A stretch of 64,000 nt of DNA from Armatimonas rosea (GTDB lineage: Bacteria; Armatimonadota; Armatimonadia; Armatimonadales; Armatimonadaceae), in contig NZ_JACHGW010000002.1 of assembly GCF_014202505.1 (NCBI RefSeq), positions 806,001 to 870,000 of the forward strand. Reading direction: 5' to 3'. The translations under genes were made by a program, and so were the position numbers. The notes beneath the pieces are model-generated. The model was not told the origin of the DNA, did no database searches, and saw only the letters and a program-made list of their open reading frames with translations. Below are positions 4,861 through 58,406 of this stretch, piece after piece (the stretch's first letter is position 1; every line of letters starts with the position of its first letter).

Positions 4861-5775
4861 ATGAAGATCGTTCTGGGTGTGGATAGTCGGACACCGGAGG
4901 CCAATGCCCCGGTGGTCTCGCTCCTGAAGCGGCTGGCCTTTGCTGACAGCGAGGTAGAGGTGGTGCACGTGGTCGCGCCGCCGGTCTTTCCCGGCGGGGA
5001 GCTGCTCCCCGTGCTCTCGGGGCTGATCGCGTCGCAGTATGAGAACACCGAGTGGCCCGATGCCAGCGCGGCGACCGCCCATGTCGCGGAGACCCTGGGG
5101 AGCCTCTATCCGGTCACCGAGACCGTGGTGACCGGCAATCCTGCCGAGACACTCTTGCGTACGGCGGAGCGTGCGGGGGCGCGGCTCCTTGCTCTCAATG
5201 CCTCGCACGACCCGGCCTGGAAAACCGTCTTTATCGGCAGTGTGGCCCGCGCCGCGGCTCTGGGAGCACAAGAGAGTGTCCTGCTCGCCCGCCCCGATGC
5301 CCTGGAGAACCGGCCTCTTCACGCGGTCTTTGCCACGGATCACTCGCCCTACGCCGACCAGTGTGCGACGCTTCTCGGGGAGCTCCTGCCCCAGGGGATC
5401 GCGGAGCTCACCGTGCTGACCGCCTTCCCCATCGCCACCCTGCGTGAGCAGCTTACCCACCGGGGCGAGGCGGGGATCGCCGAGGGAGCCCAGCTCGAGC
5501 ACACGCTCCGCACCCGCAACGCCGACACGATCGCCCGCTTGGACGCCGCCTTCGGGGACGCCGCTCCGGTGATGCAGTCTCGTGTGGTGGACAAACCCAT
5601 CTCCGAAGCCATCGCGGAGGCCATGGCAGAGACCAACGCGGACCTGCTGATCCTGGGAGCCCATGGCCATAGTGTCGTCGAGCGCCTGGTCGCCGGCAGT
5701 GTCTCCTTGCACCACGCGCTTAGCTCGCCCTACTCCGTGCTCCTCCTGCGCCCGGCGGGCTCTGCCGGGGCCTGA
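4861..5775 (+). CDS. Universal stress protein, two tandem UspA domains
   Basis: 304 aa, about twice the length of single-domain UspA. Domain 1 (residues 1-140) begins MKIVLGVDSR and ends with FIGSVARAAALGAQESVLLARP. Domain 2 (about 145-304) ends with GAHGHSVVERLVAGSVS, which fits the ATP-binding signature G-2X-G-9X-G(S/T). Domain 1 lacks the full GxxG part, so it may have lost nucleotide binding. Proteins of this type bind ATP and act in stress resistance by poorly known means. Start 4861 rather than the in-frame ATG at 4792, because the Usp fold begins at MKIVLGVD and TACACT lies 6 nt before it. The TGA stop lies inside the left arm of a 16-bp inverted repeat. Confidence 0.9.
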   Translation: MKIVLGVDSRTPEANAPVVSLLKRLAFADSEVEVVHVVAPPVFPGGELLPVLSGLIASQYENTEWPDASAATAHVAETLGSLYPVTETVVTGNPAETLLRTAERAGARLLALNASHDPAWKTVFIGSVARAAALGAQESVLLARPDALENRPLHAVFATDHSPYADQCATLLGELLPQGIAELTVLTAFPIATLREQLTHRGEAGIAEGAQLEHTLRTRNADTIARLDAAFGDAAPVMQSRVVDKPISEAIAEAMAETNADLLILGAHGHSVVERLVAGSVSLHHALSSPYSVLLLRPAGSAGA

Positions 5776-5888
5776 AAGTCCCCGCCTGGGCGACGCTTCG
5801 CGTCAAGCGGGCCGGGCCCGCAGGAAAGCGAAATACTCTGTGCGCCCTCGGGGCGCTGCGCCGTAGGCGGGGACTTTCAGCCCCCGCC
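5772..5888. repeat. REP/BIME-like intergenic hairpin element (A)
   Basis: A perfect 16-bp inverted repeat (CTGAAAGTCCCCGCCT at 5772-5787, AGGCGGGGACTTTCAG at 5865-5880) encloses about 77 bp of GC-rich sequence. The right end reads GTAG (5863-5866) directly at the foot of a hairpin with stem GGCGGGG/CCCCGCC (5866-5888). GTAG at the foot of the stem is the hallmark of REP sequences handled by RAYT transposases. The left arm contains the TGA stop codon of the usp gene. There is no T-run, so this is not a plain intrinsic terminator. Confidence 0.65.
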
Positions 5889-13436: not shown

Positions 13437-13790
13437 ATGACCAAGCCCGACCTCACCGACCTGACGGCACAGATTGTCGCCTTCCGCGATGCCCGCGACT
13501 GGGCGCAGTTCCACAACCCCAAGGACCTGGCGCTCTCCCTCTCGCTGGAGGTGGGAGAGGTCCTAGAGCACATGCAGTGGACCAACGGTGATGCCCTCAC
13601 CACCCGTCTCACCGAGCGCCGGGAGGCCGTCGGCGAGGAGCTCGCCGATGTACTCTACTACACGCTCCTGCTGGCCCACGACCTCGGAGTTGATTTGGAG
13701 ACCGCATTTGCCGCGAAGATGGCACGCAATGCGGAGAAGTATCCGGTGGAGAAAGCGCGCGGGAGCTCGAAGAAGTACACGGAGCTGTGA
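13437..13790 (+). CDS. MazG-like nucleotide pyrophosphohydrolase
   Basis: 117 aa, a full-length single-domain member of the MazG/RS21-C6 superfamily, which cuts (d)NTPs to (d)NMP and pyrophosphate using Mg ions. The acidic metal-binding motifs are present: LSLEVGEVLEHMQW and EELADVLYYTLLL. The family hallmark VAFRDARDWAQFHNPKDLALSLSLE is also clear near the N-terminus. It starts 10 bp after the macro-SIR2 gene with no promoter between them, so the two are very likely co-transcribed. On its own this would be a housekeeping enzyme that cleans modified dCTP-like nucleotides. In this pairing it could act on nucleotides made or released in a defence response. The stop TGA is the first three bases of the left end of the IS200-like element. 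Confidence 0.92.
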   Translation: MTKPDLTDLTAQIVAFRDARDWAQFHNPKDLALSLSLEVGEVLEHMQWTNGDALTTRLTERREAVGEELADVLYYTLLLAHDLGVDLETAFAAKMARNAEKYPVEKARGSSKKYTEL

Positions 13791-14482
13791 TCGCCCCTCG
13801 TTTGGATCGCCCCCGTTGGAGGGGGGCGTCTTGCTGTCCTCGTGCCTCGGACACGAAGGCCTTCGGCCATGGGAAGTTTATGGGGCTGAAAATATTTTTC
13901 GTGATTTTTGTCAGATTTGGCGGTGCTCACCCGTTATAGGGGCGTGAAAGAAGACTCTCGGTCCCAGCGCCGTAATATGCTGGTTCTCGCTCTCCATCTC
14001 GTCTGGGCCACGCATGAGCGTCGCCCTCTGATCACCGACGATATCGAGCGTGTGGTCTACCATGCGATCTCTGCCGAAGCGACTCAGCTCGGCTGTGAAG
14101 TTCTCGCCATCGGTGGGATTGCAGACCATGTGCACCTCGTCGTGACAATCCCCAGCACGCTAAGCATTGCCAAGCTCATGAACCAGATCAAGGGGAGCTC
14201 CTCCTCGACCATCCGCAACCACGTTGGCCCTGGTCGGTTCTTCGCATGGGAGCCGGGCTATGCCGCGTTCTCCCTAAGCCCAGAGCATGTCTGTGCGGCA
14301 AAGGCCTATGTTCTCAAACAGAAAGAACACCACGCCAACCACACCACGTTCGACGACGAAGAAATCTAACCCCCTACACACTCCCTATAATTCTGTATGG
14401 GCGGAGCCCTTCGTGTCGGAGCCTGCGACGACAGCAAGACGCCCCCGTTCATGGGGGCGATAAACGATGGGGGCGATCTAAA
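13788..14482 (+). mobile_element. IS200-like / REP-associated transposon with inverted-repeat ends
   Basis: One HUH transposase gene is bounded by imperfect inverted ends of about 70 bp. The left end (13788-13870) holds two tandem GATCGCCCC motifs, a hairpin CGCCCCCGTTGGAGGGGGGCG and then TCTTGCTGTCCTCGTGCC...GGACACGAAGG. The right end (14397-14482), read on the minus strand, has the same order: GATCGCCCCC, TATCGCCCCC, hairpin loop ATGAAC, TCTTGCTGTCGTCGCAGG...CGACACGAAGG. Foot-of-hairpin tetranucleotides and structured ends are expected for Y1 HUH elements, which move as single strands. A solitary element with a related end lies at 53112-53248. Confidence 0.75.
13944..14369 (+). CDS. IS200/RAYT-type Y1 HUH transposase
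   Basis: 141 aa from GTG 13944. Other possible starts are TTG 13908, GTG 13923 and ATG 13977; none has a clear ribosome binding site. PF01797 Y1 transposase: HUH motif DHVHLVV at residues 61-67 and catalytic Tyr122 in AKAYVLKQKEHH, the family's Y-x3-Q-x2-HH pattern. LALHLVWATHERRPLI near the N-terminus is typical of the group, as is FFAWEPGYAAFSLS before the Tyr helix. The enzyme cuts single-stranded hairpin ends, forming a phosphotyrosine link. It is complete and the ends are present, so the element may be active or may have been domesticated like a RAYT that spreads REP sequences. Confidence 0.93.
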   Translation: MKEDSRSQRRNMLVLALHLVWATHERRPLITDDIERVVYHAISAEATQLGCEVLAIGGIADHVHLVVTIPSTLSIAKLMNQIKGSSSSTIRNHVGPGRFFAWEPGYAAFSLSPEHVCAAKAYVLKQKEHHANHTTFDDEEI

Positions 14483-34460: not shown

Positions 34461-34575
34461 CCCCTCATGAACGAGGGGCGCTCGCTTCGCTGCTGGCGCA
34501 AGCGCCAAAAAGTCGCTCCGTGACATCTCGGCCGAAGGCCAGAAGCGAAGCGGAGCCGCCCTCGTTCATGAGGGC
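34458..34575. repeat. REP/BIME-like element (D) inside the uxa operon
   Basis: Left hairpin GCCCCTCATGAACGAGGGGC (34460-34479) starts at the TAG stop of uxaA. Right hairpin GCCCTCGTTCATGAGGGC (34558-34575) is its inverted partner. Both have the loop CGTTCATG / CATGAACG. Between them lie paired segments GCTCGCTTCGCT and AGCGAAGCGGAGC. This makes a 118-bp folded spacer between uxaA and uxaB. Confidence 0.7.
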
Positions 34576-41439: not shown

Positions 41440-41581
41440 CGTGAGCCCGAGGAACGAGTCCTCGGGCTTAAGAGGGCTACGGGCACCTTCGTGCCCACTG
41501 GATTCGGTTGGCTGCGTTTCGTATTTGTTGGCTGCGAAGGCAGCCGTAGCCCTTTCAAGCCCGGACACTCGTTGTCCGGGC
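41440..41581. repeat. REP/BIME-like element (E)
   Basis: Two near-identical REP units in inverted orientation. Left, on the minus strand: GTAG at 41480-41477, then CCCTCTTAAGCCCGAGGAC and loop to the hairpin partner. Right, on the plus strand: GTAG at 41546-41549, then CCCTTTCAAGC and the hairpin GCCCGGAC/GTCCGGGC (41559-41581) with CGTT in the loop. The GTAG tetranucleotide and a shared 8-bp linker define the unit well. It lies between convergent esterase genes; another hairpin GGGCACC...GGTGCCC lies within. Confidence 0.75.
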
Positions 41582-53111: not shown

Positions 53112-53248
53112 GCATTGCCCCCCCGATCAGAACGGGGGGGCTGGAGAGCCTTCGGCTGGAAAGGCCGTGCCGGCCATGGGCGCGAAGCGCCCTTTGTGTC
53201 CGAGGCACGAGGACAGCAAGACGCTCCCGTTCATGGGAGCGAGACTAG
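53112..53248. repeat. REP/MITE-like element (F), chimeric ends
   Basis: The left end has hairpin CCCCCCGATCAGAACGGGGGG and then CTGGAGAGCC, as in element G. The right end, on the minus strand, has hairpin CGCTCCCATGAACGGGAGCG and then TCTTGCTGTCCTCGTGCC..GGACACAAAGGG, as in the ends of the IS200-like element. Shared core AAAGGCCGTGCCGGCCATGG. The stop TAG of the oxidoreductase gene (53245-53247) forms the foot of the right hairpin. Confidence 0.7.
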
Positions 53249-58257: not shown

Positions 58258-58406
58258 TTTGGATCCCCCCGGTTGGAGCGGGGGGACTGGAGAGCGTCGC
58301 AGGCTCCGCTGCAAAGGCCGTTCCGGCCATACAAATTCCCATGGGCGGCACGCCCTTCGCCGCGCGAAGCGCTCTCCAGTCCCGCCCCTCCAACGGGCGG
58401 GACTAC
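58258..58406. repeat. REP/MITE-like element (G)
   Basis: Terminal inverted repeats: left GGATCCCCCCGGTTGGAGCG followed by GGGGGACTGGAGAGCG; right, on the minus strand, GTAGTCCCGCCCGTTGGAGG followed by GGCGGGACTGGAGAGCG. Both hairpins share the loop GTTGGA. The core has AAAGGCCGTTCCGGCCAT, shared with elements F and C. The GTAG at the right foot (58406-58403) contains the TAG stop of the GH127 gene. Confidence 0.75.

Follow-up and report, generated by a model that had tools for sequence, protein, structure and literature searches.

A Y1 transposase gene of subclass 1.2 type between inverted three-hairpin ends in Armatimonas rosea, and the gene-less repeats that probably derive from it

The locus raises the question of whether a Y1 transposase gene enclosed by hairpins is an insertion sequence of a familiar kind or the driver of a population of gene-less repeats. 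The window analysed here, a 64-kb stretch of DNA at C2:806001-870000 in a 6.33-Mb genome of 19 contigs, holds at 13789-14482 a unit of about 690 bp that comprises a left end, a Y1 (HUH/Tyr) gene and a right end. The left end begins at 13789, overlapping the TGA of a MazG-like gene (stop codon 13788-13790), and the right end reaches about 14478-14482, with a convergent cupin gene (stop 14494) on that side. An earlier note had described the gene as enclosed by imperfect inverted ends of about 70 bp with hairpins and a shared motif. Its coordinates hold to within a few bases and the ends are indeed inverted, although each is about 83 bp long. When one is inverted, the two share 81% identity over 85 aligned columns (E = 5e-14), and TCTTGCTGTC is present in both. 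The inverted-end score of the gene is 40, against a 99th percentile of 13.5 for random windows of the same genome.

The ends, which define a family that we call A, have a regular anatomy. The left end (13789-13872, plus strand, type a) carries the outer motif GATCGCCCCTCGTTTG at 13789-13804, followed by three hairpins at 13808-13828 (H1), 13835-13853 (H2) and 13858-13868 (H3). The right end (14397-14482, minus strand, type b) carries H3 at 14399-14409, H2 at 14414-14433, H1 at 14440-14459 and the outer motif at 14460-14482. Every A half thus runs, from the outside inward, from an outer GATCGCCCC(C)GTTT motif through H1, H2 and H3, with H1 bordered by GA(T/C)C and GTC; a GTAG foot was looked for at the A hairpins and not found. 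Across 89 distinct A halves the stems covary: pairs in H1 alternate between C-G and T-A (68/18) and between C-G and G-C (71/17), pairs in H2 between C-G and G-C (47/42), and at least 98% of the cells with double-sided stem changes are paired. H3, which RNAalifold failed to place on the MAFFT alignment and which was read by pattern instead, shows a swap of the same kind (GCC...GGC for GGC...GCC) in similar numbers. An apparent mirror-image relationship between the outer linkers of one element was dropped after a permutation test (5.38 versus 5.11 ± 0.24). Some A ends depart from the standard form: in four of them (L018, L090, L091, L099) CACCCAGAGGGTACCCGGTCTTACTGTCC or a close form replaces part of the terminal hairpin. 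In some elements (L009, L011, L015, L021) another complete hairpin, short-tailed, lies outside the terminal one and looks like what is left of an earlier element that encloses a more recent one.

The gene itself occupies 13944-14369 on the plus strand and encodes 141 amino acids from a GTG start, with the motifs DHVH and YVLKQKEHH. Directly before the start codon, at 13904-13943 (plus strand), lies a conserved leader, TTTTTGTCAGATTTGG...CCCGTTATAGGGGC. A near-identical leader, TTTTRTCAGATTTGG...CTCACCCGTTATAGGGGC, also ending in CCCGTTATAGGGGC, abuts the ATG or GTG of six of the seven Y1 genes in the genome (the window gene and L002-L006), although their proteins are only 44-54% identical to that of the window. 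The leader of a sister-species relative contains an in-frame TAG, which indicates that this stretch is non-coding and is the reason that the start was taken as the GTG at 13944. The leader is perhaps a shared promoter, a translational control element or a binding site for the enzyme.

Copies of the A ends were counted in the whole genome by pattern searches. The 17-nt end motif GCGTCTTGCTGTCSTCG gave 136 matches with up to two mismatches (one for the reversed pattern) and 96 with up to one mismatch (none for the reversed control), and so is not confined to the two places in the window where it had first been noticed. Nor is it common elsewhere: each of 60 related genomes holds between zero and two matches, about the control level. 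The copies are bipartite, with two inverted halves around a short core, and measure about 160 bp. In each of the 32 complete A/A copies, one half is of type a (TGTCC...GGACA) and the other of type b (TGTCG...CGACA) or its short variant; a/a and b/b pairs were not seen. Eight of the 89 halves are without a recognisable partner. Fifteen A halves are joined to halves of a second family, B (a sixteenth such call was discounted as a false match inside the element that holds the gene); for four, the partner is of a third type, A'. The gene-bearing element has the same arrangement as the miniature copies, type a upstream and type b downstream. The simplest reading of this strict pairing is that the whole a/b pair spreads as a unit and descends from one ancestral element of this kind. 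It is quite likely that 13789-14482 is a self-contained mobile unit, with a Y1 gene of subclass 1.2 type between inverted three-hairpin ends, and that the hundred or so half-ends in the genome are its gene-less derivatives, spread in trans; the eight halves without a partner count against this.

The class of the enzyme bears directly on this reading. The protein matches the Pfam Y1_Tnp model with 82 bits (cut-off 23) and passes the NCBIfam IS200 family model (73.8 bits, cut-off 55). The family profile matches solved IS200-type transposases, IS608 included, at about 1e-17 to 1e-19, and H74 and H76 (the HUH motif), Y134 and Q138 are invariant across 22 related sequences; counted from the GTG at 13944, the tyrosine is residue 122. 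The earlier note had placed the gene in the RAYT group, a label that has to be withdrawn: the protein scores 28.9 bits with the NCBIfam RAYT (REP-associated) model, far under the cut-off of 80, it has YVLKQKEHH in place of Y...NP, and its hairpins are not associated with a GTAG foot. Judged by the described motifs (DHVH, YVLKQKEHH and the invariant Gln) and by a tree, it instead fits subclass 1.2 of TnpA-Y1. In that tree, where the comparison was with ten IS200/IS605 controls, these fall on one side of a branch with SH-aLRT support of 99, and the window protein lies outside their clade.

The passed IS200 model and the nearest solved structures, which are IS200/IS605 transposases, would also suit an ordinary insertion sequence of that group, with subterminal hairpins on one strand, that moves whole and leaves miniature copies as deletion relics. 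This is unlikely, however, as the ends here are long inverted repeats, which were seen at none of ten testable IS200/IS605 control genes on plasmids (scores of 14 or less). Moreover, the seven Y1 genes of the genome are single and divergent rather than near-identical copies, the protein with its QKEHH motif lies outside the control clade, the miniature pairs far outnumber the gene copies, and the element contains no tnpB.

The other Y1 genes of the genome support the reading of a transposase gene matched to its own repeats. A Pfam search of the genome returned no eighth; each of the seven has inverted ends and a motif of the QKEHH/QKQHH type. Their ends fall into six families, each with gene-less relatives; in an 864-kb sample these gave 16 (A), 31 (B), 5 (C), 2 (D), 18 (E) and 14 (F) matches, counts that include the gene-bearing A and B elements and, since the E ends are self-similar, some E places on both strands. 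The window gene alone is flanked on its two sides by A ends. The F-family gene (L007:1465-1821) is missing the middle of the protein, which separates the HUH motif from the GY...F region, and is probably inactive; F-type ends nevertheless have the 14 matches given above.

Gene-less elements of several families occur within the window. That at 53117-53243 (no strand assigned), called element F in the earlier note and taken there for a chimera of two subfamilies, does consist of a B half (53119-53177, plus strand) and an A half (53191-53242, minus strand). With 15 A/B chimeras in the genome, it is one among many rather than a peculiarity. Its A half matches both ends of the gene-bearing element (87% and 85%). 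The hairpin, called the same in the earlier note, is of the same type but not identical, and element F reads GGACACAAAGG where the gene-bearing element reads GGACACGAAGG. The proposed match of its other part to the element near 58 kb also stands (76% between 53119-53177 and 58263-58334). The latter (58263-58402) is a gene-less B/B element and belongs to the same family as the Y1 genes L002 and L003. A C-family element without a gene lies at 34462-34574, 84% and 86% identical to the right end of the Y1 gene L004, and a probable E-family element at 5766-5887 has inverted arms that are 95% identical, one half being 79% identical to the right end of L006 (all three without assigned strand). A further bipartite hairpin element at 41445-41581, with inverted arms of 77% identity, matches none of the end families of the seven Y1 genes and is possibly an orphan family.

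Comparison with a sister species (G001) of the same genus, whose genes are about 85% identical, gives a view of the recent history of family A. The sister genome contains no A motif, and its best homologue of the window protein, at 51% identity, is not a close one. For ten A elements, the two flanks were fused in silico and used as a query against the sister genome; six gave usable pairs, all of them between genes. Four of the six sites are empty in the sister species. At one (L029) the flanks are contiguous, with about 158-160 bp absent and a junction, TTTTA/CCGCTATAAT, that is clean to the nucleotide; at three (L036, L049, L021) there is intergenic space with no element. The other two hold B-family DNA, a B-family element at the same place for L015 and a decayed B remnant for L028 (sister loci L268 and L265). 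At these two intergenic sites, A here and B in the sister look as if one family had replaced the other in place, or as if both shared favoured spots. The sister genome also carries B/B and A'-like/B elements, which, together with the missing A motif, indicates that B is common to both species and A local to one. From these sequences we infer that the A sites empty in the sister were gained here, a direction that rests on the species-specificity of A in a comparison of two species without an outgroup, in which loss in the sister is possible in principle. No clean comparison could be made for the gene-bearing element itself: the sister cupin gene (85% identical) lacks the element, but its neighbourhood is rearranged.

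These sites also bear on two accounts that do without mobilisation by this enzyme. Hairpins that lie between genes and whose stems covary could be immobile now, kept as RNA or DNA structures such as terminators, mRNA stabilisers or supercoil sites, with the transposase a passenger or a domesticated housekeeping nuclease; such roles have been proposed for REPs (PMC3733652). We regard this as very unlikely, given that family A occurs in one species and is missing at the orthologous sites of the other, that every Y1 gene is matched by a repeat family of its own, and that an Rfam search of the window returned no match. Alternatively, recombination or template switching between palindromes, or another transposase, might have spread the A copies without this enzyme, and both the frequent A/B chimeras and the two orthologous sites with B in the sister and A here are what in-place exchange would give. 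Clean empty sites such as L029, however, need insertion rather than exchange, the strict a/b pairing shared with the gene's element points to copying of the whole unit, and A ends enclose no Y1 gene but this one, which together make such a history very unlikely.

The earlier note had made the window gene the source that moves the hairpin elements of at least one subfamily. On sequence grounds it is the best candidate for the driver of subfamily A, as the only Y1 gene with A ends on both sides and one for which the sister species, with its A sites empty or otherwise occupied, has neither a close homologue nor the A motif. That the enzyme itself mobilises the copies we infer by analogy with IS608, ISDra2 and E. 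coli TnpA-REP. As in these systems, it would act as a dimer on single-stranded (lagging-strand) DNA, recognise the hairpins and cut with its tyrosine near the outer motif, and the whole two-ended unit would move, in trans for the gene-less copies. Given the anatomy and inner sequence that A and B ends have in common, ends of different families could be joined; chimeras might then arise by recombination in the shared inner AAGGCC/GGCCAT part or by mixed synapsis. A chimera that has one B end might be mobilised by a different Y1 enzyme.

Subclass 1.2 was described in 2018, mostly from Cyanobacteria and Bacteroidetes, as having neither REP repeats nor IS200 ends (Quentin et al. 2018, PMC6006769). 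Inverted hairpin ends are nevertheless found at all seven Y1 genes of this genome, at 23 of 26 Armatimonadota genes and at 38 of 78 other testable relatives from the genome collection (scores of at least 18 in both sets); they correct that description and leave the sequence-based membership as it is. The positive relatives span about nine phyla, in a tally to which two untestable loci contribute as positives: Bacteroidota, Planctomycetota, Ignavibacteriota, Verrucomicrobiota, Myxococcota, Calditrichota, Thermodesulfobacteriota, Acidobacteriota and Armatimonadota. No inverted ends are seen at about half of these 78, mostly of Flavobacterium type, which counts against the main reading. Random windows score positive in 0.1% of cases in this genome and 0.7% in the relatives' loci. 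As the hairpins are palindromic and 35 of the 78 relatives are also positive in direct orientation, what the test establishes for the relatives is that the two sides of the gene have hairpin repeats in common, rather than strict inversion. The ends of three further genes recur, with 64 copies in a 7.6-Mb genome from the same order, assembled as a single contig, 28 in a Deltaproteobacteria MAG and 12 in a Phycisphaeraceae MAG.

Among known systems the closest parallel is REPIN/RAYT (PMC3116915, PMC2817692), where a single-copy Y1 gene is likewise flanked by inverted hairpin repeats, gene-less inverted pairs are many, each gene has its own repeat family and the pair is the spreading unit. Here, however, the protein is not of RAYT class, with QKEHH for NP and no GTAG foot, and the halves are about 80 bp with three hairpins, where a REPIN half is one short REP. 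Subclass 1.2 as described (PMC6006769) agrees in its DHVH, W and Y...QKEHH motifs, its length of about 140-150 amino acids, its few and mutually divergent copies within a genome, and its position close to yet apart from IS200 proteins; the inverted hairpin ends and repeat families in about nine phyla are the difference. TIRtrons with their TIRYT genes (Di Nocera et al. 2013, PMC3733652) also hold a Y1 gene inside long, possibly self-complementary terminal inverted repeats, some of which form repeat families, but TIRYTs are mostly of subclass 2.1 (Y...NP and an extra C-terminal domain; PMC6006769), unlike the window protein. IS200/IS605 elements (IS608, ISDra2) share the HUH/Tyr core and the sequence match to their solved structures, whereas their ends have no long inverted repeats and they are near-identical multicopy ISs, often with tnpB. 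Membership of the CGTC-tagged REPs (PMC3733652) was considered because ...CGTC follows the A hairpin, and was rejected on loop and stem features: the first C and G of the tag are paired in the H1 stem (the tag is unpaired in CGTC-REPs), the loops have 6-7 nt rather than 4-5, there are no A-T pairs at the stem start, and other families of the genome are without CGTC. The arrangement is REPIN/RAYT-like and ordinary in principle; what is new is its probable driver, from a Y1 subclass described as repeat-free. Searches of the open-access literature, a scope without subscription papers and preprints, for palindromic repeats in Armatimonadota and for RAYT/REPIN since 2022 found nothing relevant.

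We tentatively propose, at somewhat less than even likelihood, that subclass 1.2 proteins form a second phylum-spanning RAYT-like lineage with inverted-hairpin repeat populations of their own, and that the ends of different families are interchangeable enough to overwrite one another or recombine in place. Left in 2018 without repeats or IS features, and thus without a role, the subclass would gain a testable job from cognate repeats that include a species-specific family and empty sites. Many hairpin repeats that are so far unassigned, in phyla such as Armatimonadota, Bacteroidota and Planctomycetota, would gain a candidate driver. Its six end families, its chimeric halves and the sequenced sister make this genome a natural experiment on the spread, competition and recombination of repeats. 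Repeats such as TAGCCCCGGGTTTCAACCCGGGG and AGTCCCGTAGGGACGACATATTTGTAG were also seen flanking subclass 1.2 genes in Bacteroidota, Ignavibacteria and a Desulfonema genome (L131, L132, L146, L168, L189).
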